The notes under the pieces: model-generated
Seen by the model: only the letters and a program-made list of their open reading frames with translations
Database searches by the model: none
Told to the model about the DNA's origin: nothing
NCBI GenBank assembly: GCA_028065135.1
Contig: JAPTWR010000072.1
Location: 1,963-33,605, forward strand
Source of the DNA: Acidithiobacillus sp.
Lineage (GTDB): Bacteria > Pseudomonadota > Gammaproteobacteria > Acidithiobacillales > Acidithiobacillaceae
Direction of reading: 5' to 3'
Length of the DNA stretch: 31,643 bases
Shown: piece by piece, positions 1,858 to 27,913 of the stretch
Position numbering within the stretch: the stretch's first letter is position 1
Layout: each line of letters starts with the position of its first letter
Translations under genes and position numbers: made by a program

Positions 1858-2856
1858 TCAAAAGAGCGTGACTTGCTGGCATTTCTGCCAATGTTTCGCC
1901 AGCCGGGGATTGATCCAGACCCGCTCCTCGCGTTGGGACTGGTCGGTATCGCGGTGCAGCGAACTCATCGCCTTGCGGGGAAAGGACAGGGTTTCCCACC
2001 CAAAGGACAGCAGCGCGTCGTCATAGTCGTCATGGGCGTACCCGCACAAGGCGGCGAACCCCTTCAACCGCCGGCACATAGCCAGCAGTTCCAGATGCTG
2101 CACGGCGTCCATTTCACCCCCTGAGTAAGTCCCCCGGCTGCGCTCGTGATGAATGTGGCGGGTATCGGGATAGTAGGGCGGGTCCAGAAAAAACAGGGTA
2201 TCGGGACTGTCGTACTGGTCCAGCAGGTCAATGGCATCGCGGTTTTCAATCACCACGTCCTTCAGGCGTTGCGCCAGGGCGGGCAGTCCCTCGATGTGAT
2301 AGTTCATGCGCCGCCCCTGGGAGCGTTGGGTACTGGTCGCAAAGCGTTTTTCGGTAAGTCCGCTTTGCCCCCCGCCACTGAAGGCGGCATTGGACACCAC
2401 AAAAAAGGCCCAGGCGCGGGTCACGGAATCGCCTTCAGGAGCATTCAGAAGATCCAGGGCGCGAACATATTCTTCTCTGGCATAGGGCGTCCACTGCAGG
2501 CGTTCCAGCAGGGCCGTGCGCAGGTGGTGCTCCTGCATGACCCGATAGAAACCGACCAGGTCGCGGTTGCGGTCATTCAGGACCTCGACGGGAGATGGCG
2601 GCAGGGCCAACAACATGGCTGCGGCTCCGGCGAATGGCTCCACATAGCAGGTGTTGTTGCGCGGCAATCGATGCGCGATTTTCTGCACCAACCACCCTTT
2701 ACCCCCCAACCACGGAAATGCCGGTCTTACAGACGGTAGTCCTGCGCACGGCGGTGCTGCGCACGGCAACGGTCCTGCACCCGGCAGTCTTACAGACGGT
2801 AGTCTTGCGGACGATGGTTCCGTGCTGAAATCCTGTATGGAAAGTGCTGTGTTCAT
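1858..2856 (-). CDS. Dam-like DNA adenine N6-methyltransferase (D12 class)
   Basis: A 332-aa protein expected to methylate adenine in DNA using S-adenosylmethionine. The order of motifs is that of the alpha-type Dam family: PWLGGKG (about 48-54, motif X), FAGAAAM (75-81, SAM binding, a variant of FxGxG), NDRN (94-97) and the catalytic DPPY at 225-228. Residues 17-46 (RLPSVRLPGAGPLP and following) are a low-complexity block encoded by the palindromic repeats at 2723-2813, placed before the catalytic domain. An ATG at 2856 with GGAG upstream is a good start. It lies between the sigma-factor gene and alpA. It may protect element DNA from restriction or control its expression; no partner restriction enzyme is seen. 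Confidence 0.9.
   Translation of the reverse strand: MNTALSIQDFSTEPSSARLPSVRLPGAGPLPCAAPPCAGLPSVRPAFPWLGGKGWLVQKIAHRLPRNNTCYVEPFAGAAAMLLALPPSPVEVLNDRNRDLVGFYRVMQEHHLRTALLERLQWTPYAREEYVRALDLLNAPEGDSVTRAWAFFVVSNAAFSGGGQSGLTEKRFATSTQRSQGRRMNYHIEGLPALAQRLKDVVIENRDAIDLLDQYDSPDTLFFLDPPYYPDTRHIHHERSRGTYSGGEMDAVQHLELLAMCRRLKGFAALCGYAHDDYDDALLSFGWETLSFPRKAMSSLHRDTDQSQREERVWINPRLAKHWQKCQQVTLF
2723..2813 (-). repeat. palindromic 15-bp repeat block 1 (in dam-like gene)
   Basis: About six units such as GTCTTACAGAC, GTCCTGCGCAC and GTCTTGCGGAC are separated by 4-bp spacers (GGTA, GGCG, GGCA). Most units have 15-bp periodicity. The block is in frame and encodes the N-terminal low-complexity segment of the methyltransferase. 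Confidence 0.75.
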
Positions 2857-2915
2857 GACGAATTCTCCATATTCTTCTATGCATCATCCTTTTGCAGCGG
2901 ATGTTCCTGCGTCGT

Positions 2916-3833
2916 CTACATGGATTCCGACAGGCGGTTCCAGTCGCGTGTGTAGTCGGCTTCGCTTTTCCCGATGGTGTAATATTCGATGGGCATGGAG
3001 CGCAGCATGTCCATGATCCGGGTCCGCAAGGTGACCATGTGGTTTTCGTCTTCGGCCAGCATCAGGGCCAGATCGGAATCCTGGTGTTTCTGGGAGAGCA
3101 TCAGCAGATCACGCCAGCGCCGGGGCAGGCATTGCAGCTTGCGATTCAGAATTTCCAGGTCCATTTTGTCGATGACGTCGGTCTCCATGCTATGGTCTCC
3201 TTCCGTGTTGAGGGTGCTCCAGCCTTCTTCGATGGCGTCCGGATAGCTCAGATCCTGCGCTTGCAGGCGGGCGTTGAAGGTTTCCTGTGTGATTTTGTGC
3301 CAGGGGGCGCGCTGTTGACGGGTATCGTGGGGAATGGGGATGACCCGGTCGTGCGCAGCAAACTGGCGAAAGCGGGTGTGCAGGGACAGGCGCAGATAGG
3401 TCCAGAAGGCTCCCCGGCTACGGCCATCGTAGCGTTCCACGGCCTGCGCGAAGGCGATCCAGGCTTCCTGTTGCAGATCATCCTTTCGGACATGACGATG
3501 GTGGCGCAGGGTAATATCGACCATGCCCCAGACCAGGGGGGCCATGCGTTCCCATAAGAGGCTCATGGCCGATGCGCTACTTCGCGCGGCCAGCACTTCG
3601 GCATCCTGGACGTAAATGCCGAGGCCGCTTTCCCCTTTTTCCCCTGGGATGATTTTTTCTGCCTGCGGCAATCCATCGCTTGCCGACTGCGAGTCTGCCG
3701 CCTGCATGGCCAACGCCTGGGCGAACAGTTGATCCCACAGATCAAGGGGCTGCGCCCCTGCAAGGGGCTGCACCCCCGCAGGGGATTTCACCCCTGAAAG
3801 GGGTTGTGTGGTTTTTCGTGCGAGATCAGCCAT
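2916..3833 (-). CDS. RNA polymerase sigma-70 family factor carried by the element
   Basis: A 305-aa protein. Residues 100-170 match sigma region 2: KDDLQQEAWIAFAQAVERYD, then GRSRGAFWTYLRL and VIPIPHD, the RG.FWTY pattern and IP end being characteristic. Residues about 226-280 (LNRKLQCLPRRWRDLLMLSQ and following) fit region 4, the -35 binding helix-turn-helix. Residues 12-30 are low-complexity sequence from the repeat block at 3745-3813. The gene overlaps the dotG-like 3' end by 8 bp, so it is cotranscribed with the secretion genes. It probably directs polymerase to element promoters. Region 2.4 is somewhat divergent, so promoter choice cannot be predicted. Confidence 0.8.
   Translation of the reverse strand: MADLARKTTQPLSGVKSPAGVQPLAGAQPLDLWDQLFAQALAMQAADSQSASDGLPQAEKIIPGEKGESGLGIYVQDAEVLAARSSASAMSLLWERMAPLVWGMVDITLRHHRHVRKDDLQQEAWIAFAQAVERYDGRSRGAFWTYLRLSLHTRFRQFAAHDRVIPIPHDTRQQRAPWHKITQETFNARLQAQDLSYPDAIEEGWSTLNTEGDHSMETDVIDKMDLEILNRKLQCLPRRWRDLLMLSQKHQDSDLALMLAEDENHMVTLRTRIMDMLRSMPIEYYTIGKSEADYTRDWNRLSESM
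3745..3813 (-). repeat. palindromic 18-bp repeat block 2 (in sigma-factor gene)
   Basis: The palindromes CCCCTGCAAGGGG, CCCCCGCAGGGG and CCCCTGAAAGGGG recur every 18 bp, joined by CTGCA- or TTTCA-like spacers. The block encodes the N-terminal SGVKSPAGVQPLAGAQPL of the sigma factor. Confidence 0.75.
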
Positions 3834-5034
3834 GAGTGTTCTCCTTCACCGGGGACATGAACAGGATGCCCATACCCGTACCGGCGGGAACCCGGACGGT
3901 GGGCGGCGTGTTGAAGCGGTTTTCCGCGATGGGGACCATGACGTTACCGACATTGCCTGCGGTCTGCTCGAGGATTTGCCCGTTATTGAGCTGGTTGGTC
4001 ATCACGGCGAATCCGTTGCCGACCGTTACCGCCTGATTGGACTCCTGCAGGGCCTGATCGAGGCCTTGCAGGAACGCGCCGGCGAAAAGCCAGCCGTAGC
4101 GGTACAGCACATGATTATTGACGCTGGTCGCCATGCCCACATGCGCATTTTTCGTGCTGATCGCATAGGCGTTGATGGGATAGGATTGCCCGTCAAAAGT
4201 CATGATGTGGAATTGCAGCACGACCACCTGATGTTCTCGCTTGAAGCTGCCCAGTAGCCGCGCGCCATGAAAACGTCCCCCTTCGATGGTGGCCTCGATG
4301 GGGGTTGGCTCGTTGGAGTTCACTCCGATATCCAGCATGGCGAAGGAAATATGTCCCGCCAGTGCCAGCACATGGGAGGATCCTTGCAGTTCCTGATTCG
4401 CCGCGGCGGCATTGGTTTCCCCCGTGATCGGAGAGATTTTGCTGATCTGTGTCACGGTTACGTCCCCATAGGGTTTATCGTGGATGAACCGCTTCAGCTC
4501 GCTCATCATCGCCTGCTGCAACGGACTCGAGGACGTGGGAGACGTGGAGTTGGCGGCGGGCGTATAGGGATTCTGCACGAGAGCGGTAGACTGCGCCGGG
4601 GCGGTCGCTGCCGGAGCGGACGCCGCTGGAGCGGTCACGGATTTCGTCGGGGCTATGGGATGCAGGGCGGTTGGCGTAGGCAGATAGGTCTTCCCGGTCT
4701 GGGCCGCCTGCTGGCCCAGCAGGTGATTCGCCTGATTGAGTTGCGTGTTGTAGGCCGGGTTGCCTTTGCTGCCCCCGGGTGCGCCGTGCAGGTGCGCGGA
4801 CTGGATCTGGTTATGGAGTTTGGGTGGCGCGGAAGGGCCGCTCACTAGCCGGTAAGCGCCGAAGCCCAGGGCAACCACGGCGACGCCGGTGGTGATGAGG
4901 GCCATCTTGCGGGTCGCGGGATTCGTATAGAACGCACCCACCGCCTTGGTGTAAGACATTTTTTTCGTCGCTTCCACGGCATCGGATGCATCCGATGATG
5001 TAGTTACGGGCTGGTTTTCTTTTTCCTGGTCCAT
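3826..5034 (-). CDS. dotG: type IVB secretion core protein DotG/IcmE-like (VirB10-type)
   Basis: A 402-aa protein with a cytoplasmic N-terminus, one membrane helix at about 43-62 (ALITTGVAVVALGFGAYRLV), an Ala/Pro/Thr-rich periplasmic linker to about 170, and a C-terminal VirB10/DotG-like domain ending in RVPAGTGMGILFMSPVK, which is typical of the family. In Dot/Icm and IncI conjugation systems this protein spans both membranes and lines the channel core. The start ATG at 5034 overlaps the dotH stop by one base (TAATG), which implies translational coupling. It is shorter than Legionella DotG because the long pentapeptide-like repeat region is absent, as in conjugative homologues (TraO). Order dotI-dotH-dotG supports the call. 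Confidence 0.85.
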   Translation of the reverse strand: MDQEKENQPVTTSSDASDAVEATKKMSYTKAVGAFYTNPATRKMALITTGVAVVALGFGAYRLVSGPSAPPKLHNQIQSAHLHGAPGGSKGNPAYNTQLNQANHLLGQQAAQTGKTYLPTPTALHPIAPTKSVTAPAASAPAATAPAQSTALVQNPYTPAANSTSPTSSSPLQQAMMSELKRFIHDKPYGDVTVTQISKISPITGETNAAAANQELQGSSHVLALAGHISFAMLDIGVNSNEPTPIEATIEGGRFHGARLLGSFKREHQVVVLQFHIMTFDGQSYPINAYAISTKNAHVGMATSVNNHVLYRYGWLFAGAFLQGLDQALQESNQAVTVGNGFAVMTNQLNNGQILEQTAGNVGNVMVPIAENRFNTPPTVRVPAGTGMGILFMSPVKENTHG

Positions 5035-6092
5035 TAGCGCACCTCCAGGGTCTGATTAGTGCCGTCGAAGCGCATCAGCACGGCATGAGTTTTGGGCAGG
5101 ACATAGGCGTGGACCCCGTTGGCGGAGGCTTCGGTGGCGATCCAGGCGGGAGCCAGCAGGCGGGCATGGCTGCGAATCCAGAGGTCGCCGTTCAACATCC
5201 ATGCGCGGGTGTAGCTGTAGGCAGGGGCGTTTTTCACCCGCAGGGTCTTGGCATCGCTGGGCATGGTGCCATAGAGGGTCTGCAGCAATGCGACGGTCGT
5301 ACCGTGGTTGGGGCTGGGCGAGAAGGAAGCGGGCAAACTGCCGGGAACCATGCCGCGCACTCGGAGGATGACCCGATAGGCTACGGTTTCCTTGCCGTTC
5401 TGGAGGGGCCCGCCGCTGACCATTTGCACGGGGATGGGCGTATTCAGTCCCTGCAGGTTCAGCAACAGATTGCTCTCCGCGTGCGGCAGAAGGTCGGAAA
5501 CGATGACGGTAGGTTCCAGCGCATTTTTAGCGATGGGCTGCACGGAAAACCGTTTGCCGCTACCGATGGCGGCGGAGACGATGGGCCAGGGCTGCCCGGC
5601 GCCGTCCACCACGGTCAGCGAGCAGGCGTACCCCGCCGCCATGTGGATCGTCGGCGTGATTCCCGCGTTCGGGTCGACGGTGATGACCTGGGTAATGCCA
5701 TTCTTGGGGATAACGGGCTCGTTGGCGCTGTCCTGGGTTTTTCGTACTTGCCCCCGGAACTGGTGAATCTGCTTCCCCGACAACGGTAGCAAGGCTTTTT
5801 CGATGCTCTTGAAGGGCGGCAGACCAGGAAGCCCCTGCGGGGTGCGCCCTTGCAGGGTGCCAGCCCCCTGCGGGGAGCCAATCCCCTGCGGGGAGCCAAC
5901 CCCCTGCGGAGCAGTGCTCGGCTGCGGGCTTGCGGGCTGCAAGCCTGTGGGCTGGAGGATAGTGGTGGACGGTGAAGGTGTGCCGTTGAGCCGGTCCTGC
6001 AATTGCTGTGCGGCCGTAGTCTGCTGTGGTGACGCTCCGGACTGGATGATCTGCGTCGTGGCGACAGGCGGTTGGGTGATGATGATGCCCAT
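5034..6092 (-). CDS. dotH: type IVB secretion outer-membrane core protein DotH/IcmK-like
   Basis: A 352-aa protein. The C-terminal part has the DotH/IcmK signature: ITPTIHMAAGYACSLTVVDG, then GQPWPI, and a TVAYRVILRVRG-like strand. In the family it forms the outer-membrane ring with DotC and DotD. Residues about 46-90 are a Gln/Gly/Pro-rich stretch (QGVGSPQGIGSPQGAG) encoded by the palindromic repeats at 5830-5955. The start is well fixed by AAGGAG 7 bases before the ATG and 4 bp after the dotI stop, yet the N-terminus (MGIIITQPPVATTQ) shows no signal peptide, which is odd for an exported protein. It lies in an operon with dotI and dotG. Confidence 0.85.
   Translation of the reverse strand: MGIIITQPPVATTQIIQSGASPQQTTAAQQLQDRLNGTPSPSTTILQPTGLQPASPQPSTAPQGVGSPQGIGSPQGAGTLQGRTPQGLPGLPPFKSIEKALLPLSGKQIHQFRGQVRKTQDSANEPVIPKNGITQVITVDPNAGITPTIHMAAGYACSLTVVDGAGQPWPIVSAAIGSGKRFSVQPIAKNALEPTVIVSDLLPHAESNLLLNLQGLNTPIPVQMVSGGPLQNGKETVAYRVILRVRGMVPGSLPASFSPSPNHGTTVALLQTLYGTMPSDAKTLRVKNAPAYSYTRAWMLNGDLWIRSHARLLAPAWIATEASANGVHAYVLPKTHAVLMRFDGTNQTLEVR
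5830..5955 (-). repeat. palindromic repeat block 3 (in dotH-like gene)
   Basis: Repeated CCCCTGCGGGG cores (for example at 5832-5842 and 5883-5893) alternate with GTGC- or AGCCA-type spacers, followed by GGGCTTGCGGGCTGC units. The block encodes the Gln-Gly-Pro-rich linker of DotH. Confidence 0.7.
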
Positions 6093-6096
6093 GGGT

Positions 6097-6846
6097 TCAC
6101 TCCTTGATCAGGGAAATGGAGGCGATGGCGATGGCGCGCGGGTTCTTCCAGTTATCGACACGCTGGACGATCACGGTGGCCAGATACTTCTTGTCGGAAA
6201 GTCCGTTGGAGTTTTCGAGACGGAAATGAATGGGAATCTGCACCTGCCACGAGTAAACGCCCTGTGGATTCGGTCCCTGCCGGAGCATGACGGCGGTTCC
6301 GCTCTGTACGGCGGAGATCATGAGCTTGCGAGCCACCATGTCGGCGTACAGGCCGTTTTTCTTGAATTGGTGGAGGAACGTGACAAATCCCGCGTGCGTA
6401 AAATCTTTTTCCGCGGCGGCCATCCGTCTGCGGTAATCGAGCACGTCGAAGCTGAAAATCCCGGTTACGGCCTGTTCGGTCCAGGCGATGACGGCGGCGT
6501 TGGTGTCGAACGGCTTGTCGTTGGACACCAACGGCATGATGGTTCCGTTGGGTTCGGTGGCGAAATAATGGTTGGTCACCACCGTCCTGGGGAACACGAA
6601 ATAGAGCAGGGCGAACAGCACCGCAAAAATGCCCAGAAACCATTCGCGGGTATAGGCCATGCGCAGGGCTTTTCCGGCGTGATAGGTACCGATGAACTCC
6701 GCCTCCAGATCCCCGAACCGTGGTTCCCCTGCGGGGTGCATACCCCCTGCGGGGTGCAACCCTGCGGTGGGCATCTCCCCTGCAGGGTGCCGCCCTGCGG
6801 GCGGCAACTCGGTTTTGGCTTTTTTACTTCTACCGAATAAAGGCAT
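6097..6846 (-). CDS. dotI: type IVB secretion inner-membrane protein DotI/IcmL-like
   Basis: A 249-aa protein with one membrane helix at about 68-87 (REWFLGIFAVLFALLYFVFP) and a periplasmic domain of the DotI/IcmL/TraM family (NHYFATEPNGTIMPLV, then a WTEQAVTGIFSFD stretch that is characteristic). It is an inner-membrane part of the type IVB channel. Residues 15-42 (AGRHPAGEMPTAGLHPAGG) are repeat-encoded and lie in the cytoplasmic tail before the helix. The start at 6846 is preferred over an upstream in-frame start because AGGAG lies 8 bases before it. The gene overlaps the DsbC-like gene by 17 bp, and dotH follows 4 bp after its stop. Confidence 0.87.
   Translation of the reverse strand: MPLFGRSKKAKTELPPAGRHPAGEMPTAGLHPAGGMHPAGEPRFGDLEAEFIGTYHAGKALRMAYTREWFLGIFAVLFALLYFVFPRTVVTNHYFATEPNGTIMPLVSNDKPFDTNAAVIAWTEQAVTGIFSFDVLDYRRRMAAAEKDFTHAGFVTFLHQFKKNGLYADMVARKLMISAVQSGTAVMLRQGPNPQGVYSWQVQIPIHFRLENSNGLSDKKYLATVIVQRVDNWKNPRAIAIASISLIKE
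6721..6808 (-). repeat. palindromic repeat block 4 (in dotI-like gene)
   Basis: CCCCTGCGGGG, CCCTGCGGTGGG, CCCCTGCAGGG and CCCTGCGGGCGG cores lie at 15-18 bp spacing. They encode the PAGRHPAGE-like cytoplasmic tail of DotI. Confidence 0.7.
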
Positions 6847-7831
6847 GGGCCAGCTCCTGGTTATGATTTGCGCCCATCCAGGTCTGACCGGTCCGGTCAT
6901 CGATGAACGTGGGCGTGAAGGGATGGTGATCATCCACGGCATACAAAATGGCGGTGTTCACGGCGACGGTTTTTGCCACTGCCTTGTTTTTTCGGATTCC
7001 CTTTTTTATGCGAATCCCGCCGCTTTCGGTTTTTGTCCGGAATCCGTTTTCGTTCTGCAGCCAGAGGGAAAGCGGATTTTTCGCGCTCATGATCTCGATG
7101 GCGCGGGGTACGCTGGAGGGTTTCAGGGCCGCGACGGGGATAATGCGAAAACTGATGTTTCCGGCGTTCACGGCGGCTTTTTCGGTAGCGAACCATTGGT
7201 GGCAATAGAGGCAGTTGGGATCGACCAGGGCATCCAGGTTGGTATGGTCATCACGTCCCCAGATGAAGCCGCGGGCGAATGCGACATAGCGCAGAACCGC
7301 TTGCGCATGGGCCGGACTACCGTCTGTAAGACTGCCGTCTGCAGGACTGCCGTCTGCAAGACCGGTTCCGATGGCCTTTTGCGTCTTTTGCATCTTTTTC
7401 GCCTTTTGCGTCTTCTGCGGCAGGTCGGCGGGATTGGGGATGCTCATTAAGGCGTGTGTGGGGTGAATCACTATTCCTGGCCAGATCACGTTCCATGGAT
7501 TGCCCTGATCGGTATACACATGGGCGCCGACGACGATGCCCCGGATTTTTCCGTCATGCGTGAGGAAAAAGACCGTGTGCAGGGAGTGATCGGGATAGCG
7601 GACCTGGGCTGCGGGAATGCCGTTTACGGTGCGGTTCTGCACCATCCGGACCTTGCCGTGCCCGGCCTGCCGGATGACGGCCGCCATCTGCCGGGTGCTC
7701 ACGGAATGGGGTGCCGACCAGTAGACGATCAAGGCTAGACAGCCCAGGACCAGCAGGAAAAGCAACCCGACCAGCAAGACCCGAGGTCTATGCAGGTTCT
7801 GTCCTATCGTCCCGAATGCTGTTGACTTCAT
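6830..7831 (-). CDS. DsbC/DsbG-like thiol-disulfide protein of the secretion operon
   Basis: A 333-aa protein with an N-terminal membrane anchor or signal (about 17-38, RVLLVGLLFLLVLGCLALIV) and a thioredoxin-fold redox motif Cys207-Leu-Tyr-Cys210 in DPNCLYCHQWF. Later segments (FIDDRTGQTWMG) fit a DsbC/DsbG C-terminal thioredoxin domain. Such proteins help disulfide formation in conjugative channel subunits in the periplasm, and homologues sit in IncI and GI-type transfer operons. Residues about 157-173 (GLADGSPADGSLTDGS) come from the repeat block at 7320-7363, between the N- and C-terminal parts. The ATG at 7831 has GGAGAGG upstream; longer in-frame readings run into repeat DNA. The gene overlaps dotI by 17 bp. 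Confidence 0.75.
   Translation of the reverse strand: MKSTAFGTIGQNLHRPRVLLVGLLFLLVLGCLALIVYWSAPHSVSTRQMAAVIRQAGHGKVRMVQNRTVNGIPAAQVRYPDHSLHTVFFLTHDGKIRGIVVGAHVYTDQGNPWNVIWPGIVIHPTHALMSIPNPADLPQKTQKAKKMQKTQKAIGTGLADGSPADGSLTDGSPAHAQAVLRYVAFARGFIWGRDDHTNLDALVDPNCLYCHQWFATEKAAVNAGNISFRIIPVAALKPSSVPRAIEIMSAKNPLSLWLQNENGFRTKTESGGIRIKKGIRKNKAVAKTVAVNTAILYAVDDHHPFTPTFIDDRTGQTWMGANHNQELAHAFIR
7320..7363 (-). repeat. palindromic 15-bp repeat block 5 (in DsbC-like gene)
   Basis: Three clean units, GTCTGTAAGAC, GTCTGCAGGAC and GTCTGCAAGAC, are each separated by TGCC. This is one of the clearest arrays of the family. Confidence 0.8.
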
Positions 7832-7864
7832 GCGATCCTCTCCATTTCCAAAAATCTCACTGAC

Positions 7865-7966
7865 CTTGGTGCCGCAAACTTTTTTCAGGGGGTTTCGCCC
7901 CTGAAGGGGGTTCGCCCCCGCCGGGCGCAGCCCTGCAGGCGGCAAGCCCTCTGCGGGACGCAGCCC
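7865..7966 (-). repeat. intergenic leader with one 35-bp-type repeat and palindromic block 6
   Basis: The leader of the DsbC-like gene carries CTTGGTGCCGCAAA at 7865-7878 (sense as TTTGCGGCACCAAG toward the gene), followed by palindromes such as CCCCTGAAGGGGG and GCCCTGCAGGC up to the stop of the primase-helicase gene. This is the only sizeable palindromic block outside a gene. Confidence 0.65.
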
Positions 7967-10900
7967 TCAGCCGCTTCGCCATTGCTGGGCCATATCGCGA
8001 CGAAACCGGCTGGACGTGATCTGCAGGGGTTTGCTGAGATCGAGGCGCGGAATGCCGGGATGATCGCGCCAGTCGTCGAGCAGCGCCTGCAGGAGCGGGT
8101 CTTCCCGCAGTCTCGCGGCCAGTGTCCGTTCAGCCTCGTCGAGCGCGGGCAGGACCGAGAGAGATTCGGGATGCTGCAGGGTCAGGTAGCTGTCCACGAA
8201 GTGGGTCAGGATCGCCAGCGTCTCGATGACCGGGTGCTCCGGAACATTCAGCCAGCGCACCCATTCCTTGCGATAATCCAGGCCAATCCGCTGCTCGAAG
8301 GCGTGCGCGATTTCGGGCGAAATCGGGCCTGCGGCCTGCAAAGGGCTTGCAGCCTGCAAAGGGCTTGCAGACGGCTGTCTTGCAGCCGTCAGGCTTGCGG
8401 ACAACAGGGTTGCGGACAGCGTTCCTGCAGGGCTGCCGCCAGCAGGGCCGCCGCCTGCAAGGCTGCCGCCTGCAAGGCTGCGCCCGGCAGGGGGATGTGC
8501 CCCGCCTGCGCGGTACCACTGGCCCTCGCGTTGCAGGAGGCGATCCAGGAAATCTTTTTCCTCGAACGCGGGGAATACCCGCGATGGGTCGGGGTCGCCC
8601 GGCAGACTGCCCGGAGCGGGCTGCACGCCGACGAAGGCTTTTACCTGCGTCCCCTGGATTTGCAGGGTGATCACATCCCCGTTGCGCACCGTCTTCGGGA
8701 GACTCTTTGCGCAATCCTCGCCGCCCGCAGGATTGTTGCCGTCCGCAAGACAAGGGTCAGAATGGTGTTGGCCGGGGATATCTTTATTATACACCCCGCC
8801 AACAGTTGGGATGCCTGCATTTCCAATGACTTGCGAAGGGGTGTCCGGGCGGAACCGGATGTAGGTCCAGGGTTCCGGGTCGTCGTCTGCGATGCGCTCC
8901 TCGACGGAGAGGCCAGGGAACGCCTCCTGCAGACGTTGGAGGACGGCCTGCTGATCCACCCATCCGGGAGTGATGTGGTACTGCCGGGGTTCCAGGACGC
9001 GATAGAGTTCGCGAATATTGAACTGGATGTCATCGTCTCCCCCGGTTTCGCGTCGCTGCTGGATCAGTTGGCGCAGCAGGGTGAACACGCGGTCTTCCTG
9101 GGGTTGTTCCGGCGCGGGGATGGGCAGGTCGGTGCGCACGATGATCTCGGTGGCCTTGCCGGGCCGGATTTTGTAATCGATCACGTCGGGCCGCGATTCT
9201 TTGAGCAGTTCCAGCGCCTCGCGCAGGTTTTCGGACTGGAAGCCAGACAGACCGTGCTTTTTCACGGTTTTCTGCAGCTCGCGGACGCTCATGCGGATGG
9301 TTTTTGTCTGCACGGGCAGGATCTCCGTTTGCGTGTTAGCACCCTGCGAAGGGCTGCCGCCTGCAAGGCTGCCGCCTGCAGGGCTGCCGCCAGCATGGCT
9401 TGCGGATGGTAGTTCGGCGTCCGGCAGGGAAATCTGGTAACCGCTGATGATGTTGGCCAGCCGTTCGACCGCTTGTCGGTGCAGGATTTCGGGAGACAGG
9501 AATTCGGCGGGGATGACCTCATCGATATAGGTGCCGAACAGGCCGTCGATGGGGGCAATCTCCGAATACACATCGCAGAATTTTTTGCGAGATGCGCCTG
9601 CGGGATTGTTGACTCCGCGCAGCCGGCCCACGGCCTGGGTGATGATCTGCGACGCGCGCCACCGCACGAAATGGTTGAAATCCGGGTTGGCGAACACCCG
9701 CGCCAGTACCTCGTAGCCCAGGTGCGGGAACGGTAAATAGTCCATACCGCTGCTGTCCCAGGGGTTGGCGAATTCGTCCAGGTCCGCCCATTGAGTCAGG
9801 CCGAAGATGCGCCGGGTGGCGAGATAATCGCGGGCCATCACCTGGGCGGGCGGCAGATCGAGCGTCCAGATCACCAATCCGTCGCAATCCGCCCAATCGT
9901 TGTGGGCGACATGGTGCTTGCCGATCCAGCCGATGAGGTACTCGTAGCCTGGATGAGCTTTCCTGACCCATGCCTGCAAGGTGGGTGCCATGGCTTTGGA
10001 AACCAGTATGGCGACTTTCAGCCCTTGGTCCCAATACGCCTGCAGGATGCGCTGCGCGCCCTGGATCGCGTTTTCGGGGTTCATCAGGTGGGCGGTTTTG
10101 GTATGATTCAGCGGCCGCCAGACCAGATGCACATGATCTTCCGCGAAGTTTTCGATGACTTCCTTGCTCATCGCGATCAGCGCCATGTCCGGAGTGGCCG
10201 TGTAGATGCCGATACTTTTTTTGCTTTCGCCGCGATGGCTCGCACGAAGCTCCTCTCCGAAAGTCGTGGGGAAATGCAGGATGATGCGACGGCCCGAGAT
10301 CCCTTCCGCGCCCTCCTGGAAAAAGATGCTGCCGTGTTCGAGCGCCAAAGCTAACGACTTGATGAATACCGTGGGGGTGACTTTCCGTCGCGAATGGGGA
10401 GAAGGGGTATAGGGCTGCTCGTAGGGCGCCTCGTGCTGAATTTTCTGTGCGCGAATCGACTTCAGGAAAGGAAGGATGATCTTGCGCTGCACCTTTTTGG
10501 TCTTGATCCATGTGGCGATGCTTTTGGCATCCATCAGGGGTTCATCCGCCATCACATCCAGGAAATGCCGGTGGAGGAACCGAAGAAACAGCATGACTTT
10601 TTCGGTCGAGATAATGGATTGCTGCAGTTCCTTGCGGCGCTTCTGATTTGCGGGGGTGTCGGGAGTTTGCGCCAGAAGGAAACGCTGGTTGTCGATCCAG
10701 TGATCGATAGCGCCTCGCGATTCGTAGAACTCTTTCGTGCCGATGGCCTGTCCGTCCATGAGGGCGGGCATCTCATCCTGCTGGATGTGGGTGGCCTGTG
10801 CGAACAGCCGCCGGTCGTACTGCAGGAGTGCGGTGGTGGTACAGACGGCTTTTTCGCGATAGGACAGGCGGCGGTTGAGTTGTGCGGCGCAGGGCAGGAA

Positions 10901-13246: not shown

Positions 13247-13248
13247 GA

Positions 13249-13620
13249 TCAGTGCCCCGCGATATGACCGGTGCGGGGGCCGCGCCGAAAAAACAGCCAC
13301 TGTTGCCGGGCATCCCGCGCAGAGATGAGGGTGTCGGTAACGGTTAGTACCTCGGCGGGCCAATCGCGGACGCCGTCTGTGAGGATGAGGATGTTGCCGG
13401 GGTCGATCTCATCGAGGACGCCCCAGAAAACCGGGTTGCCGTGGTCATCGGGACGGGCGACGACCCGGATGTGGGGGCTGCCGCCTGCAAGGTTACACCC
13501 GGCAGGGCGTCCGCCTGCAGGGCTGCACTCGGCAGGATTGCACCCCCGCAAGGGTTTGCACCCGGCAAGAGAAAGTGCTGAGTTGGTGGCAGGAATCATG
13601 CATTGTCGCTGCTGTGACAT
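13249..13620 (-). CDS. unknown small protein preceding the primase-helicase
   Basis: A 123-aa protein of no recognised family. It starts at ATG 13620 with a strong AAAGGAG site 6 bases upstream and ends 2 bp before the GTG of the primase-helicase, so the two are coupled. Residues about 17-48 are repeat-encoded (LRGCNPAECSPAGGRPAG). The C-terminal 75 residues (RVVARPDDHGNPVFWGVLDE and WPAEVLTVTDTL) are probably a small beta-rich domain. The N-terminus (MSQQRQCMI) resembles that of the next gene upstream (MQQQPCIIH), and their ribosome-site regions are also similar. Its leader contains the 35-bp tandem array. Confidence 0.6.
   Translation of the reverse strand: MSQQRQCMIPATNSALSLAGCKPLRGCNPAECSPAGGRPAGCNLAGGSPHIRVVARPDDHGNPVFWGVLDEIDPGNILILTDGVRDWPAEVLTVTDTLISARDARQQWLFFRRGPRTGHIAGH
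13475..13570 (-). repeat. palindromic repeat block 12 (unknown gene before primase-helicase)
   Basis: Units GCCTGCAAGGT, GCCTGCAGGGC, CTCGGCAGGAT and CCCCCGCAAGGG recur at about 15 bp. They account for a quarter of this 123-aa protein. Confidence 0.7.
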
Positions 13621-13650
13621 ATCGATCTCCTTTTTTGGGGTAACTTCCCC

Positions 13651-13784
13651 CTTGGTGCCGCAAATTTTTGGGGACTTCTCCCCCTTAGTGCCACAAACGG
13701 TTTCCGGGCTATTTCGGTCTTGGTGCCGCAGACCGTTTTTCGGTACTTGCTTCCTTGGTGCCGCAGAGTTTTTCGGGGCGCGGG
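13651..13784 (-). repeat. four-copy tandem repeat, about 35 bp, core CTTGGTGCCGCARA
   Basis: The core occurs at 13651-13664, 13684-13697 (one variant, CTTAGTGCCACAAA), 13719-13732 and 13754-13767, spaced 33, 35 and 35 bp. Between cores a T-run followed by CGG or GGG is shared. The array fills the 164-bp gap between two minus-strand genes. Toward the downstream gene it reads TTTGCGGCACCAAG. It could be replication iterons, operators or leader RNA elements; the sequence alone does not decide. Confidence 0.7.
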
Positions 13785-14111
13785 TCATGAGTGGTCCACT
13801 GTTGTCGTTGCCGATTCGCGATCGTGCTCCAGGAGGCTGATCAGGCTGCGGTCGTTGGGCTGCGCGAGTCGCTCGATGCCGGTCTGCAGAATGGCGGGCA
13901 GCAGGTTGCGGGGGATGATCTCGCGGATCAGGAGGGTGAGGCTGTCTGGATTGGTGGTTTGCAGGACACAGACCTCTTTTCCGAGCGGCTTTGCGTGATA
14001 GCTTCCGTCGGGTTCGATCGTCACCAGAAACCGGTTCTGCGGAGGGCGAGCCTTCGGCAGGGGTGGTAACCGGTCGATGACAGAATGGATGATGCATGGC
14101 TGCTGTTGCAT
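13785..14111 (-). CDS. unknown small protein
   Basis: A 108-aa protein of no recognised family. The ATG at 14111 follows AAAGAGATCGTC; longer in-frame readings run through the end of the previous gene. The sequence contains LVTIEPDGSYHAKPLGKEVC and a C-terminal helical part (LLIREIIPRNLLPAILQTGI). No membrane segment is seen. It lies between the Cro-like regulator (25 bp gap) and the 35-bp repeat array, so it is an early gene of the leftward operon. Confidence 0.55.
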   Translation of the reverse strand: MQQQPCIIHSVIDRLPPLPKARPPQNRFLVTIEPDGSYHAKPLGKEVCVLQTTNPDSLTLLIREIIPRNLLPAILQTGIERLAQPNDRSLISLLEHDRESATTTVDHS

Positions 14112-17307: not shown

Positions 17308-17491
17308 TGATATGACATAACCATTCGCAAAGCCATACGAGCGCCATTGCTCACTGTGCGGTCAGTTGTACCGCAGTGATGCGCCGGGGCTCGGTATTTA
17401 AACAAGAACAGGAACCCCCGGTACGTCCACCCTGGATGTATGCGGAAGGATCGGCCGGGCAGAGGTTGGGTGCTTGCTGAAGGAGATCATC

Positions 17492-18394
17492 ATGAGTCTA
17501 CTCGATAGCAGCAATTCCGCACGTCCCGTGGGTGGATTAGGTATCGGTCCGCGGGAGGATTACCGGCCGCCCGTGACGTATCGCCGTGGCATGGAAACAT
17601 CTGCACCGGCAAACGTCCGCAGGGCTACCGTCAGTAAGACCGCCGCCTGCAAGGCTGCCGCCTGCAAGGCTGCATCCATATCAACGGAAGCCCGATCTTG
17701 CCCCAGGGAAGCCGACACGGTGCTGCCCGTCGGAAATCCTGCGACCCATCATACCGGCAAGGCTAGAAAGAAATCCCAGGCGGCTCGTGTCATGGATGCG
17801 GTCCGGTCCGGAGCGCGTAACACCACCGAGATCACGAGGTGTGCTGGACTGGTTCGTACCGATACCGTCAAGACGATATCCGCGCTGATCAAAAAGAAGA
17901 TGCTGCTGGACTTGCCGCACCCGCCCGGCACGGATCGTTGCGTGATGCTGGGCGTATCTGCCGGTTTTCCGGTGGAATCGCCGGTATCCGGGGCATCGCC
18001 GGATGCCCTGCCACAAACACCAATCGCACCGTGCGACATCCACGAAAAAGACGAAAAAGCCGAAAAAGGTGAAAAAGGTGAAAAAGGTGAAAAAGGTGAA
18101 AAAGCGGACGAGTGGAATCACTGGAGCGACCAGGACGCGCCGGGTTCCATAGAACCTGAAGAGGTAATGCCGTTGCCTTATGCATCAGTGGAGCAGGGCG
18201 AATCCGGGGAATCCTCCCTGCTGGAGGAAATGGACCGGATGATCACGCGGCACCAGAAGGATATGAACATCATGGCTGCGCTGGTAGGTCGATTGCGGCG
18301 AATCCACGAGGCGGACAGTGAGGAACAAGGTGAACAAGGTGCGATGGCGGAGCTGATCAGGGTGCGGAAAGCCCTGCGGGATTTGATCGCATAA
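17492..18394 (+). CDS. unknown protein with winged-helix-like segment and EKG repeats
   Basis: A 300-aa protein starting at ATG 17492 with AAGGAG upstream. Residues about 43-60 (KTAACKAAACKAA) come from palindromic repeats. Residues about 96-140 (AARVMDAVRSGARNTTEITR and following KTISALIKKKMLL) look like a winged helix-turn-helix DNA-binding segment. Residues 185-205 are seven Glu-Lys-x triplets encoded by 9-bp tandem repeats. The C-terminus is predicted helical (MDRMITRHQKDMNIM). It may be an element-encoded DNA-binding protein; function is not known. Confidence 0.6.
   Translation: MSLLDSSNSARPVGGLGIGPREDYRPPVTYRRGMETSAPANVRRATVSKTAACKAAACKAASISTEARSCPREADTVLPVGNPATHHTGKARKKSQAARVMDAVRSGARNTTEITRCAGLVRTDTVKTISALIKKKMLLDLPHPPGTDRCVMLGVSAGFPVESPVSGASPDALPQTPIAPCDIHEKDEKAEKGEKGEKGEKGEKADEWNHWSDQDAPGSIEPEEVMPLPYASVEQGESGESSLLEEMDRMITRHQKDMNIMAALVGRLRRIHEADSEEQGEQGAMAELIRVRKALRDLIA
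17615..17672 (+). repeat. palindromic repeat block 13 (in the EKG-repeat gene)
   Basis: GTCCGCAGGGC and two perfect GCCTGCAAGGC units joined by TGCC. Here the block is read in the frame giving Ala-Cys-Lys-Ala-Ala. Confidence 0.75.
18044..18106 (+). repeat. 9-bp tandem repeat (GAAAAAGGT, seven units)
   Basis: Seven consecutive 9-bp units: the middle four are exactly GAAAAAGGT, while the first two and last are single- or double-base variants. It encodes Glu-Lys-Gly triplets and is likely to vary in copy number between isolates. Confidence 0.85.
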
Positions 18395-22314: not shown

Positions 22315-23241
22315 ATGCGATTTCTGGAAAGTAACCCACCTGTATTCCGGCACGGTGCCAATACTGCCGGGCGCGATTTCATCGTGGGCGATCTGCACGG
22401 CTGCCGGGCCATGCTGGACGGTTTGCTGGAGCATGTGGTTTTCGATGTTCAGAAAGACCGGCTGTTCAGCACGGGCGATCTCGTGGATCGTGGCCCGGAT
22501 TCCGAGGGTTGTTTGGCACTCCTGGAACAGCCCTGGTTCTATCCGGTATTGGGCAACCACGATGCTATGCTGATGGCGTGGATCATCGGGGAAAGCAAAG
22601 ACCGGCGACAGAGGGACTATGAATATGCGTTTACGCATAATGACGGCTGGCAATGGGTGAACCGTTTTTACAAGGCGTCTCAATACCTGCCTTTACTCGA
22701 GCGAACCCCTTTTATACGGGTAATCGGAGAAGGCTTGCACCCGGCAAGGGGCTGCACCGCTACAGGGGGCTGCACCCCTGCAAGGGGGGAGACCCGTTTT
22801 CAGGTGGCCCACGCGGAACTGGTGGATGTCGCATCCAATGTATCTGTTTTGACAGACGCGATGCTGGATCATCTGTCTGCCCAAACCTGGGACAGGGAGC
22901 ATTATATTGTCGGCTATGATGATGTGGGCACATGGACGGATCATGTTTTATGGGGACGCAGCCTCATTCACGAGGTAAGAAGCCGTGCGCGGGCGGATCA
23001 GCATTTGCCCCTTGCTGTACAACGCGGCCTTTCGCGGACTTATGTGGGCCATAGCATTGTGGCTCCGGCGTTTGGTGGAAACGGCGCGTTACCATTGGAG
23101 GCTCGCAGTCATGTTTTTCTGGATAGCGGGGCTTTTTCAGCGGAAAAGAATGGTACAGGGCTGACGCTCTGGAATCACACGGAACATTGCGGGTTTTTTA
23201 TGGACGGTATTGGGCATATTCATTTTCTGAAAGGAGACTGA
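22315..23241 (+). CDS. PPP-family metallophosphatase (lambda phosphatase-like)
   Basis: A 308-aa protein with the metal-binding motifs of PPP phosphatases: GDLHG (25-29), GDLVDRG (54-60) and GNHD (80-83). It resembles phage lambda and bacterial PrpA/PrpE-type protein phosphatases, which dephosphorylate proteins or dinucleotides. Residues about 140-160 (PARGCTATGGCTPARG) are inserted by palindromic repeats, away from the metal site. The GGGAGG site supports the start at 22315 rather than an earlier in-frame codon. The motifs are intact, so it is probably active; the substrate is unknown. Confidence 0.85.
   Translation: MRFLESNPPVFRHGANTAGRDFIVGDLHGCRAMLDGLLEHVVFDVQKDRLFSTGDLVDRGPDSEGCLALLEQPWFYPVLGNHDAMLMAWIIGESKDRRQRDYEYAFTHNDGWQWVNRFYKASQYLPLLERTPFIRVIGEGLHPARGCTATGGCTPARGETRFQVAHAELVDVASNVSVLTDAMLDHLSAQTWDREHYIVGYDDVGTWTDHVLWGRSLIHEVRSRARADQHLPLAVQRGLSRTYVGHSIVAPAFGGNGALPLEARSHVFLDSGAFSAEKNGTGLTLWNHTEHCGFFMDGIGHIHFLKGD
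22733..22792 (+). repeat. palindromic repeat block 14 (in phosphatase gene)
   Basis: TTGCACCCGGCAAGGGGCTG then CCCCTGCAAGGGGG-type units at 18-bp spacing. It encodes the inserted Gly-Cys-Thr-rich loop of the phosphatase. Confidence 0.75.
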
Positions 23242-24639: not shown

Positions 24640-24773
24640 AAACAAAAAACGTGACGCTGCGCCATCATTATTATAGAATAAACACCAATGGAAAGGATGC
24701 GCATTTCTGGATATTGGAGTAGATATCCATGTGTCGCATGTTATATGGTTTTCTACACTGCCTGGAGGTTTTT

Positions 24774-25090: not shown

Positions 25091-25110
25091 TCGACAAAAG
25101 GAGCAACATC

Positions 25111-25365
25111 ATGTTTGGATTCGGAGAAAAACCCCAGGAACAGCAAACCGCCACTTGCCCATGCTGCCAGACGCAAATGCAGGATATGGGTGCCCATGGT
25201 ATCCGCATGGGTGGACTCACCGGTCTGGGCGGTGCCGCCCTGGGCATGATCGGTGGCCAGATGGCCGATGATGGCGAGGAAGCCTTTGAGAAAAAGCTCA
25301 AGGTGCAGGTCTTTGTCTGCCCACAGTGCAGCGAGATTTCGTTCAAGTATCACGGTGGTTTGTAG
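25111..25365 (+). CDS. zinc-ribbon protein
   Basis: An 84-aa protein with two CxxC pairs, CPCC at about 16-19 and CPQC at about 70-73, separated by a Gly-rich stretch (GGLTGLGGAALGMIGG). This is a zinc-ribbon-like arrangement with a hydrophobic hinge. AAAGGAG precedes the ATG at 25111. The function is unknown; it sits directly before the recJ-like gene. Confidence 0.6.
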   Translation: MFGFGEKPQEQQTATCPCCQTQMQDMGAHGIRMGGLTGLGGAALGMIGGQMADDGEEAFEKKLKVQVFVCPQCSEISFKYHGGL

Positions 25366-25480
25366 TGGTGATCTCCATGACCCAACCGCACACGTTGCCA
25401 TAGGCGGAGCTTACAGAGAAGTACGCGAACTCCCATTGTGGCACCATGAGACCAGGGATTCTACAGAAGGACATCCATCC

Positions 25481-27382
25481 ATGACGATTCAGACCGCAAC
25501 CCCTGTTCCCGCCCCGCAGGCGGCAGCCCTGCCGGGAGCAGCCCTGCAGGCGGCCGCCCTGGTGCGTCGCCTGCTGTTGGCGCGGGGGGCCGATCCTGAA
25601 GACGCGCTGGAACTTTCGACGATCTCCCATCCGCTGGGCAGACAGGGCATGATGGGCATGAAAGAAGCCGTGGACTGGCTGACTTATGCCATTTCGCAGC
25701 AATGGCCGACCACCATCGTGGGCGATTATGACGTGGACGGCGCCTGTGCCACGGCCATTCTGCGCAAGGGATTGGAAGGATTGTTGCCCGTAACCAGCAT
25801 CGTGCCCAACCGTCTGACGGAAGGGTATGGACTGTCGGAAGCGGTGGCGGCACGGATTGCTCCGGAAACCCGGCTGGTGATCACGGTGGATAACGGAATT
25901 TCCGCCCATGCCGGTATCGCCGCGGTGAAAGCGCGCGGGATGGCGGTCATCGTCACCGATCATCACCTGCCCGGACCCGTCCGCCCGCCGGCGGATGTCA
26001 TTGTCGATCCCAATCAGCCCGGTTGTCCCTTTCCGTGGAAGTCCACCTGTGGCGCGGGGGTGGCGTGGTATCTGCTGCTGGCCCTGCATCTGACGCACCC
26101 GGAATGGGTGGGGCGCGAGAGGATGGAGGAAACCCTGGATCTCGTGGCGCTGGCGACGGTGGCGGATCTCGTACCGCTGGAGCGCAACAACCGGGTACTG
26201 GTGGCCAACGGCCTGCGCAGGATACGCTCGGGGAACATCAATCCCGGGCTGTCCGGTCTGGTGACCTTTGCAGGATTGGAACTGGAACATCTGCGGGAAC
26301 AGGATTTTGCTTTCCGGCTGGGCCCCAGGCTGAACGCGGCGGGCCGTCTGGCCGACATGCAGACCGGCATTCGCCTGTTGCTGAGCCGCGATGCGCAGGA
26401 CATTGAAAACTGGTCCCGGTTTCTGGAAACCGTCAATGCGCAACGCAAGGAAATCCAGGCCGACATCGAGCGGGAAGCCATCCAGATCACGGAAAGTCTG
26501 CGCGATACGGGTGATCCAGTGATCTGCGTGGGCGATGACGGCTGGCACAGCGGCGTGGTGGGCATCGTGGCGAGCAAGCTCAAGGAACGCTATCAGCGCC
26601 CGGCATTCGTGTTCACGTCCACGGGAGATTACGGGCAGACCGCACAAGGTTCGGGTCGTTCGATGGACGGCTGGCATCTGCGCGACGCGCTGGCTTTGGT
26701 GGAGAGCCGTACTCCGGGCCTGCTGAACCGCTTCGGGGGACATGCGATGGCGGCCGGACTGTCGCTGAGCAAGGCGCGTTTCGGGGAATTCCGGCGGAAC
26801 ATCAATGCGATATCGTTGGAGCAGGTGCCGGGTGGGCGATTTCAGAAAGCAGTATGGTGCGATGGTCCCCTGCAAGCGCCGGAACTGACCCTGGACATGG
26901 CGCGGGCCATCGAGCAGGCGGGACCGTGGGGTCAGGGTTTCCCGGAGCCCCTTTTTGAAAACGACTTTGTGGTGGTGTCGAGCCGGACGATCAGGAACGG
27001 CCACTGGAAGCTGCAACTGCGTCTGGATGATGCCCTACCGGGTGCAGCCCTGCAGGCGGCAGCTCCTTCGCAGGGCGCAGCCCTGTCCGTCGCTGGCGCG
27101 CCCGGCGCAGCCGTGCCCGGTGCAGCAGCGTCCGAATGTGGTGCGACCGATGCCGTACATTTCCTGAATGGCCGGGAGATGGCTCAGGAACCGCCGCCGG
27201 TGGGCGTTCGGGTGCGCGCCCAATATCGGCTGCAGGTGAACCGCTGGCAGGGAAGGGAGGGCCTGCAGATCCACCTGGAACAGGTGGTACCATCACCGGC
27301 TCCGGTGGTGATGCCTTCTGCGGTGGAGGTCCGGCGCGAGGAAGACCGGCAGCCTTCGTCCATTTCAGCCGGTCCGTCCTGA
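25481..27382 (+). CDS. recJ: RecJ-like single-stranded-DNA exonuclease
   Basis: A 633-aa protein of the DHH/DHHA1 family that degrades single-stranded DNA 5' to 3'. Motifs include GDYDVDG (81-87, catalytic Asp), ITVDNG (135-139 region), TDHH (159-162), LNAAGRLADM, GDDGWHSGVVGIVA (DHHA1), GSGRSMDGWHL (about 387-400) and GGHAMAAG (about 418-425). Two low-complexity stretches come from palindromic repeats: residues 13-27 (QAAALPGAALQAAAL) and about 519-550 in the C-terminal OB region. The ATG at 25481 follows AGAAGGA. Its leader contains TTGTGGCACCATGAG, similar to the 35-bp repeat core. The copy is probably an element-borne accessory, since hosts usually have their own recJ. Confidence 0.9.
   Translation: MTIQTATPVPAPQAAALPGAALQAAALVRRLLLARGADPEDALELSTISHPLGRQGMMGMKEAVDWLTYAISQQWPTTIVGDYDVDGACATAILRKGLEGLLPVTSIVPNRLTEGYGLSEAVAARIAPETRLVITVDNGISAHAGIAAVKARGMAVIVTDHHLPGPVRPPADVIVDPNQPGCPFPWKSTCGAGVAWYLLLALHLTHPEWVGRERMEETLDLVALATVADLVPLERNNRVLVANGLRRIRSGNINPGLSGLVTFAGLELEHLREQDFAFRLGPRLNAAGRLADMQTGIRLLLSRDAQDIENWSRFLETVNAQRKEIQADIEREAIQITESLRDTGDPVICVGDDGWHSGVVGIVASKLKERYQRPAFVFTSTGDYGQTAQGSGRSMDGWHLRDALALVESRTPGLLNRFGGHAMAAGLSLSKARFGEFRRNINAISLEQVPGGRFQKAVWCDGPLQAPELTLDMARAIEQAGPWGQGFPEPLFENDFVVVSSRTIRNGHWKLQLRLDDALPGAALQAAAPSQGAALSVAGAPGAAVPGAAASECGATDAVHFLNGREMAQEPPPVGVRVRAQYRLQVNRWQGREGLQIHLEQVVPSPAPVVMPSAVEVRREEDRQPSSISAGPS
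25511..25560 (+). repeat. palindromic repeat block 15 (start of recJ-like gene)
   Basis: CCCGCAGGCGG, CCCTGCCGGG and CCCTGCAGGCGG cores spaced 15-18 bp. They encode the Ala/Gln-rich N-terminus of the exonuclease. Confidence 0.65.
27036..27127 (+). repeat. palindromic repeat block 16 (C-terminal part of recJ-like gene)
   Basis: GCCCTGCAGGCGG and CCTTCGCAGGGCG units, then degenerate copies (CCCGGCGCAG, CCCGGTGCAG), encode an Ala/Pro-rich insertion between strands of the C-terminal OB domain. Confidence 0.65.
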
Positions 27383-27913
27383 GATCGAGGGCAGTTTGCT
27401 GGCGATGACGTGGTAGCGGGTTGCCCCCTGCAAGGGCCTGCCTGTCAAAAACCGGGAGCGTGTTTTTCCACGGATATCCTGGCGCCCGTGACTTCCCGCA
27501 TGATGGGCATGTTTCGCATGTGCCGATCGACGGCTTGGGCAATGATTTCTGGTGACGCCAATTCCCATCGCAGGTCTTGTTGACGGACAATAAAGTTTCA
27601 TCCTAGCGTTTCCACTGAATTACGGGGGGCTGGACCTGCTTGACAGACGCACCCGACTCTACCGCGAATAGTGCAGGCATGGTCAGGGGGTGGCGGTCCT
27701 CGGCGAGGCCTTGCTCACGGACGACTGGCTGCCGTAGTATTCTCTATGGTCTGATGACAGTTAAAGACTGAGAGCGGTCATTCAGGCTAGGCAATGTCAG
27801 CGCCCGGAGATCGTCCAATGCTGACGCTGGTGATCCCCCTGAAAAGTCTGCCGGTACCGCCCTACAGCAAGGTCAGCTATTTCTATCCAGCACAAACTTT
27901 ACTTTAAGAATCC
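27383..27913. other. 530-bp gap: last palindrome, gene remnant, change of composition
   Basis: The gap between convergent genes holds a lone CCCCTGCAAGGGCC (27424-27437), the last copy of the palindromic family. On the minus strand 27445-27597 is open without a convincing start and encodes LRWELASPEIIAQAVDRHM and then MREVTGARISVEKHAPGF before a stop; it looks like the end of a lost gene. From about 27750 GAGAGCGGTCATTCAGGC resembles common intergenic relic sequence. Base composition changes here, so this may be an old junction of the element. Confidence 0.4.

Follow-up and report, generated by a model that had tools for sequence, protein, structure and literature searches.

Tandem micro-palindromes with matched arms, inside and between genes, found mostly in conjugative islands of the Acidithiobacillaceae

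The 31,643-nucleotide stretch of Acidithiobacillus sp. DNA considered here (contig JAPTWR010000072.1 of assembly GCA_028065135.1, positions 1,963 to 33,605; hereafter the window) carries a family of short palindromic repeats, built as tandem units of 15, 16 or 18 bp with the design X-TGC-X'-GGCA, in which the arms are free in sequence but matched to one another. An initial annotation had pointed to dispersed palindromic blocks ending at about 27.4 kb, and we confirm that the family is real, with 16 chains of dyads in the window and covariance-model matches that reach 27436. That the repeat originates at the DNA level is well supported. The reading that we favor, with a probability of about 0.58, is of a lineage-specific family of tandem micro-palindromes whose spread and correction take place at the level of DNA, which is tolerated in protein linkers and which resides mainly in conjugative elements of the Acidithiobacillaceae.

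Results

We defined a chain as a series of alternating TGC and GCA cores, with successive cores separated by 6-11 bp and each core bordered by arms that are at least 3/4 complementary. The window holds 16 such chains comprising 61 dyads, whereas 10 dinucleotide shuffles average 0.0. Hairpins with 4-bp arms and GCA, TGC, TGCA, TGCC or GGCA loops number 50, versus 8.9 ± 2.4 in 20 shuffles, and Tandem Repeats Finder independently reports 15- and 18-bp arrays. A covariance model, proposed as a check in the initial annotation, was built from 30 units of the window and its relatives (trained, that is, partly on window units) and recovers the family both in the window and in genomes of the host family; in the window there are 48 matches at E ≤ 1, extending from 2739 to 27436, with none outside that span. 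No match falls in the integrase end or in the cargo beyond 27.9 kb, which is richer in A+T.

The spacing of the cores, established from chains of the window and 21 related loci, is simple. From TGC to GCA the offset is nearly constant (8 bp for 97 of 112 steps), from GCA to TGC it is variable (of 98 steps, 7 bp in 50, 10 in 17, 8 in 15, 9 in 12 and 11 in 4), and the 15-, 16- and 18-bp periods therefore differ mainly in one linker. Periods of 15 and 18 bp had been described earlier and both are present, but there is also one of 16 bp, mostly in the intergenic arrays of relatives; similarly, the reported GCA-type centers exist but alternate with TGC, so that GCA is half of the design. Perfect inner arms include GTC/GAC, GCC/GGC, GGC/GCC, CCC/GGG, GGG/CCC, CAC/GTG, GAT/ATC and CCG/CGG. 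The unit was further said to lack stops in all six frames, which is the case for all 16 window chains and for 23% of 5000 random window segments.

An unbiased test of the arms was made by taking every TGC-N4-GGCA-N4-TGC in the window and relatives with the arms ignored, giving 127 sites, 77 of them distinct. The mean over the distinct sites is 2.49 of 4 arm pairs, as compared to 1.63 ± 0.097 for shuffled partners (the maximum of 5000 shuffles is 1.97); the matched variation of the arms claimed at the outset is thus real but imperfect, at a mean of 2.5 of 4 pairs. A pair count over the same sites gives 68.5% of cells paired versus 47.6 ± 2.2, and the covariation score of 0.469 is matched by none of 500 shuffles (0.171 ± 0.025), with six slid registers (0.045-0.284) all falling below the true one. 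Scrambled-core controls yield 3, 4 and 3 sites with means near 0.7, and three of four control patterns are without excess, the fourth comprising 4 sites only (1.75 versus 1.05 ± 0.41). TGC-centered helices (52 sites), the 16-bp type (18 sites) and the 18-bp type (27 and 28 sites) behave similarly.

Covariation extends to silent positions. Where Asp/Gly-Gly-Ser is read in frame, GAC GGC AGT occurs 10 times and GGC GGC AGC 21 times, with 7 and 2 crosswise combinations (p = 0.001); when the TGC core is included and any frame allowed the coupling becomes 21 and 35 matched to 7 and 2 crossed (p = 3.5e-9), and for distinct 16-mers 9 and 14 to 5 and 2 (p = 0.007), all of these p-values being optimistic as related copies are not independent. 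The choice of serine codon is silent and yet tracks the opposite arm, and it is therefore DNA pairing that is kept. In ParB orthologues a matched arm change, GGGA-GCA-TCCC versus GGGG-GCA-CCCC, converts Ser to Pro (one site). The initial annotation had raised the possibility of a protein repeat with conserved peptides and no covariation of the DNA arms; what is found is that the arms covary at a synonymous position and that homologues lacking the block retain the protein on either side of it.

We have examined 119 chains with respect to genes, 63 coding, 55 intergenic and 1 at an edge, using our own codon-usage gene caller, which misses real window genes so that some of the chains called intergenic are coding. 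In the coding chains 105 of 114 steps are divisible by three, as compared to 61 of 130 outside predicted genes, where 51 steps are of 16 bp; an earlier and cruder caller, superseded by the present one, gave the same direction more weakly (158 of 209 coding and 8 of 25 intergenic steps). Stop-freedom in six frames is nearly complete both for coding chains (60 of 63, with 24 expected from composition) and for intergenic ones (54 of 55, with 19 expected), and is therefore a property of the unit and not a result of coding. All six frames are used among the coding chains (17, 16, 15, 8, 4 and 3), as expected from the earlier remark that genes read the repeat in different frames. The accompanying statement that nearly all blocks lie inside genes is correct for most copies of the window, but the array at 7886-7960 is between genes and the copy at 27416-27436 is outside as well.

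Comparison of related elements establishes whole-unit differences in copy number, a variation that had been put forward as worth looking for. In a protein alignment of 12 sequences of the 1798-residue open reading frame (ORF) of the window (Table 1), several window blocks align with gaps in the homologous proteins, and some of these positions are occupied there by different repeats, read in other frames; the arrays at 8325..8500 are missing from 10 of 11 aligned homologues, and other repeats are found in place of the array at 11776..11867. Two elements of one genome with 87% DNA identity were compared with a third related element (L001, L002, L003). Their primase-like gene shows differences of 33 bp and of a single 15-bp unit, present in L002 and missing from L001 and L003, another gene shows a 15-bp difference, and the intergenic array beyond the primase-like gene, at the same place in all three as window array 7886..7960, differs by 35 bp, a length not divisible by three. 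Islands of six further genomes were compared as well; their orthologues of ParB, TraB, TraG (the coupling protein) and a transglycosylase differ by 15- or 18-bp units, between flanks that are closely similar.

The distribution of the family was followed in 29 genomes of the host family. A strict double pattern is found in 9 of these (reversed control, 0 of 29) and in 3 of 397 other Pseudomonadota, where, judged by eye, 0-2 of the 4 arm pairs are matched (reversed control, 1 of 398, in G682); a narrower pattern has a match in the starting genome only among 369 genomes of the class. The covariance model at E ≤ 0.1 gives matches in 21 of the 29, several of them weak, and with 150 candidates scored per genome the counts are lower bounds. 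In G018 there are 28 model matches, and all 23 of those listed lie within 92 kb of a 3.0-Mb genome, and in G008 and G017 matches occur at several places. Nine of the 18 matches in G005 are identical (25.7 bits, 31 nt) and scattered over the chromosome (C1); they probably represent a single insertion sequence that matches by chance and are not counted as arrays.

The arrays are mostly located in conjugative islands with unrelated transfer systems, in one host family. Dot/Icm-like clusters are the hosts in the window, L143, L215 and L207 (the contig of L003), and other host clusters are of TraG/TraB/CagX type, of F type with TraC (L134) or contain TrbE/TrbL (L138). The islands of the family hold 40 chains in 320 kb (one 20-kb stretch overlaps others), related TraG-system plasmids (Acidovorax, Sedimenticola, Pseudomonas; IncP-type) 2 irregular chains in 93.6 kb, both from Acidovorax, and two 50-kb stretches of A. 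caldus megaplasmids, which are without transfer genes, no chain. Homologues of the DotH-like and TraC proteins were found in other plasmids. With L183, a plasmid search matched three A. caldus megaplasmids over short stretches only, and those of the stretches that bear an annotation are labeled transposases; plasmid searches that started from the window, from its primase or from L209 gave nothing useful.

Viral contigs served as a further control. Within 80 of the 87 stretches that match the doubled pattern there are 94 distinct sites, of which 63 have 0-1 matched pairs and 4 are fully matched; the same pattern in the family genomes and window gives 26, with four pairs in 8, three in 12, two in 5 and none in 1. 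Many of the viral matches resemble the pentapeptide-repeat class and are without matched arms. Two related IMG/VR contigs, G775 (L085/L116) and G776 (L095/L113), have long matched-arm arrays (GGAC/GTCC, GGGG/CCCC) of up to 12 dyads, with 22 and 16 model matches, that can code for PADGS or PAGGT repeats. One phage protein from these contigs has a relative in 0 of 29 family genomes, a result that carries no weight on its own. Scans of viral sequences with the DotI-like protein and with alignment A2, a phage search with L116 and a search of viral contigs with an 18-bp pattern gave nothing useful.

Table 1. Positions of repeat arrays and of landmark genes in the window
Positions	Strand	Feature	Remarks
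220..1678	+	tRNA-Leu(CAA) (220-306), then tyrosine integrase	Left end of element; no model match
2726..2812		Dyad array, GTCT-TAC-AGAC and GTGC-TGC-GCAC units	N-terminal end of D12 adenine methylase ORF; covariance model, direct reading
3685..3807		Two blocks, ORF 2916-3833	15-bp type 3685-3710, 18-bp CCCC/GGGG type 3743-3807; Tandem Repeats Finder, covariance model
3826..6942	-	TrbI (DotG-like), DotH/IcmK, DotI/IcmL genes	Last two host arrays
5832..5952		18-bp type array and GGCT/AGCC dyads	DotH/IcmK-like gene
6725..6806		18-bp type array	Near N-terminus, DotI/IcmL-like gene
7315..7363		15-bp type array (GTCT/AGAC)	ORF 6830-7945
7886..7960		Array	Between ORF 6830-7945 and primase-like gene
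7967..13363	-	1798-aa primase/helicase-like ORF	Hosts several in-gene arrays
8325..8500		18-bp, then 15-bp arrays	1798-aa primase/helicase-like gene
9346..9404		15-bp array, SHAGGSPAGGSLAGGSP	1798-aa primase/helicase-like gene
11776..11867		Mixed 15/18-bp array	1798-aa gene
12201..12240		18-bp type array	1798-aa gene
12654..12823		15-bp arrays, arms GAC/GTC, GAT/ATC, GTC/GAC	1798-aa gene
13475..13579		Array	ORF 13249-14097
17615..17671		15-bp array, ACKAACKAA frame	ORF 17474-18394
22731..22790		18-bp type array	Metallophosphoesterase-like gene
25510..25570		15-bp array, QAAALPGAALQAA frame	RecJ-like gene, N-terminus
27039..27128		15-bp array	RecJ-like gene, C-terminal part
27416..27436		Last dyad copy, CCCT-GCA-AGGG	Outside RecJ ORF; model E 0.048

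After the integrase the gene order is D12 methylase, TrbI/DotG-like, DotH/IcmK, DotI/IcmL and the 1798-aa ORF, beyond which lie C5 methylase, phosphoesterase, PLD-protein and RecJ genes. The 1798-aa ORF itself is without a Pfam match; two distant homologues and a close one carry a toprim tag or name, and on the basis of this tag and a Walker-type motif we read it as primase/helicase-like. Of its six organism-named homologues five are from Acidithiobacillus and one is from a gammaproteobacterial metagenome-assembled genome (MAG), and the genome contigs that encode it are two from A. ferrivorans DSM 22755 and one MAG. From homologues mainly in Acidithiobacillus, the tRNA and integrase, and the transfer genes we infer that the window represents the left-hand portion of a conjugative element integrated in a genome of this lineage. 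ORF 6830-7945 has its likely start, judged by eye, near 7831, and the block at 3743-3807 includes a core variant, TTTCA...TGAAA.

Several other features of the window deserve mention. The element itself carries a RecJ-like exonuclease gene (25482-27382), with arrays near both ends. Positions 27914-31118 hold cargo richer in A+T (DUF3800, an NA37-like nucleoid protein), without any model match, that is perhaps a recent addition. Different tandem repeats are also present: a 9-bp repeat, GGACCGTGG, at 71-117, to the left of the tRNA, and a nonamer, GAAAAAGGT, in 6.8 copies at 18044-18104 in ORF 17474-18394. The latter, and an Ala/Pro-type array at 4594-4636 in the DotG-like gene, were excluded from the family as both are without TGC/GCA cores. 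A separate 14-bp motif, CTTGGTGCCGCAAA, occurs with 0-2 mismatches at 7865, 13651, 13684, 13719, 13754 (+) and 15650 (-); at up to 3 mismatches there are 10 matches versus 4.4 expected, a number reached in 0 of 100 shuffles. A close variant adjoins the intergenic array in L001, L002 and L003, and the motif could be an operator of the element.

Discussion

Published systems are compared here as they are described in abstracts and passages of mainly openly accessible papers, a literature in which no description of such arrays was met; the passages taken from PMC3826726 and PMC6370655 do not mention them. The suggested likeness to Rickettsia palindromic elements (RPE), with shorter and tandem units, is supported as an analogy. 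RPE are palindromic, 105-146 bp in size with terminal inverted repeats, and found in frame in many unrelated genes as well as between genes (PMC2229807), with counterparts in Wolbachia and Methanocaldococcus (PMC2996958). The present family is likewise palindromic DNA tolerated in frame in unrelated genes and between them, with flanks conserved in orthologues that lack the element, but its units are of 15, 16 or 18 bp in tandem, with freely covarying arms, use of six frames and a location mostly in conjugative elements; it works like RPE but is no member of that family. PARCELs are tandem in-gene repeats with DNA dyad symmetry and, in some taxa, a link to mobile DNA, defined by an amphipathic protein motif of 25 residues (75 bp) (PMC2996958). 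Tandem in-gene repeats, dyad symmetry and mobile-DNA association are shared with our arrays; however, 55 of 119 chains here lie outside predicted genes, and 29 scanned proteins, not all of them array-bearing, gave no Pfam match to the PARCEL-type DUF285 domain.

Repetitive extragenic palindromes (REP), which are linked to RAYT transposases, are also short and numerous. They measure 20-40 bp, are extragenic by name and mostly have a tag at one end (PMC3733652), whereas our repeats are tandem and often intragenic, with 63 of 119 chains inside predicted genes. The coding inverted repeats of Nematomorpha mitochondria, up to 284 bp with arms that encode conserved protein (PMC6649704), similarly combine palindromes with protein function, but they are long, and short tandem units are not part of that description. 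As in minisatellites or variable number tandem repeats, tandem units change in copy number between relatives, and to this dispersal and arm covariation are added. In size, motif or location the arrays depart from RPE and PARCELs, and we regard the family as a new variety among protein-coding palindromic repeats.

How might such a family arise? Units would multiply by slippage, accounting for their gain and loss, and short template switches within one strand (quasi-palindrome correction) would restore the match between arms in single-stranded DNA, with more opportunities for switching in conjugative elements by virtue of their extra single-stranded phases; that these elements pass through single strands fits the location of the arrays. 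Purifying selection would then leave only in-frame copies, in protein linkers, and new places may, as a guess, be seeded by short-homology priming at TGC/GCA. Template-switch mutation at quasi-palindromes is known to homogenize the arms of short inverted repeats, coding DNA included (PMC8604942), but as a single-site process, whereas the family here is dispersed and in tandem, with fixed spacers. Several observations weigh against the mechanism. When folded as single-stranded DNA with DNA parameters, 4 of 6 window arrays do no better than shuffles (z of 0.12, 0.70, -0.15 and 0.79), the other two giving -4.49 and -2.99, with the stretch 12725-12826 better than all 200 shuffles. Of the earlier proposal of selection or spread as a hairpin, then, the DNA-level family stands, but a stable hairpin in DNA or RNA is not supported by the folding of these four. 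Arms of 4 bp are shorter than typical quasi-palindrome hotspots. The cores are more conserved than the arms, a difference not expected from mutation alone and one that hints at recognition or at coding as a filter. Some arrays occur in chromosomal-looking surroundings, away from evident mobile DNA: that of L205 is beside DUF444 and IS605 TnpB, that of L206 near RecJ and a secretion ATPase, and that of L217 has a chloride channel gene on one side and a HAD gene on the other. Finally, no enzyme was identified for the family and no template-switch event was caught among the relatives compared.

Other explanations start from selection on the product or on the DNA itself. Pentapeptide or hexapeptide linkers could be selected for their amino acids, with DNA palindromy a by-product; the common peptides SPAGG, SPADG and ALQAA do resemble flexible linkers, blocks lie between conserved stretches and the two viral contigs code for similar PADGS/PAGGT repeats. 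Yet one DNA design gives many peptides in six frames, intergenic copies share that design, often with the 16-bp step, a synonymous serine codon follows the opposite arm and a matched arm change replaces Ser by Pro between orthologues. Repeats of protein only are rejected in view of the frames, the synonymous coupling and the intergenic copies, and we consider amino-acid selection highly improbable. Pentapeptide-repeat proteins in particular have an A[DN]LXX repeat in one frame (Pfam PF00805), a family without a match in the Pfam-scanned proteins of the window and relatives. Selection of mRNA hairpins for effects on translation or stability, in keeping with the location of most window copies within genes, is hardly credible: sense-strand mismatches do not favor G-U over A-C (20 versus 29 of 344 cells), on which ground it is rejected, intergenic copies exist and folding, with DNA parameters only, is weak.

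It is also conceivable that the dyads are functional sites, bound by a dimeric protein or a structure-reading enzyme of element or host, with selection keeping their symmetry and the rigid TGC-N5-GCA part as putative contact. The constant cores, the near-invariant 8-bp offset next to one that ranges from 7 to 11, and the many dispersed copies in transfer regions speak for such sites, but free and yet matched arms are unusual for a protein site, the coupling-protein orthologue of L139 is without the N-terminal array present in five relatives and the A. caldus stretches are chain-free, though they lack transfer genes; on balance we find this rather unlikely. A mobile element proper, in which a transposase or another, RAYT-like enzyme inserts hairpin units as for REP, would agree with the 15-bp unit confined to L002 and with dispersal over unrelated transfer systems. 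However, Y1 (RAYT-type) transposase matches, found in 15 of the 29 family genomes, number 0 in array-bearing G005, G008, G009, G018 and G026, so that Y1 transposases are not needed and RAYT-driven REPs are rejected; target duplication was not seen, nor were conserved ends beyond TGC/GCA, and we regard insertion of this kind as distinctly unlikely.

Concluding Remarks

Our preferred reading, of DNA-level spread and correction with tolerance in protein linkers, may be carried one step further, albeit tentatively and with doubt on our part. The arrays could be selfish DNA defined by architecture, with fixed TGC/GCA spacers and arbitrary arms copied as complements, that spreads via the single-stranded phase of conjugation and that colonizes genes of unrelated transfer systems because its unit is readable in six frames. 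If true, this would be a kind of DNA parasite set by layout and not by sequence.

Palindromes that code for protein have been described in Rickettsia, in Wolbachia and in an archaeon, and also as PARCELs, and to our knowledge the manner of their spread has not been resolved to date. The family described here offers covarying arms, short units, copy numbers that differ between close relatives and a contrast in step between coding (15/18 bp) and intergenic (often 16 bp) copies, and the birth, correction and purging of in-gene repeats are therefore measurable. It provides, in addition, a natural test of whether conjugation drives the growth of palindromes.

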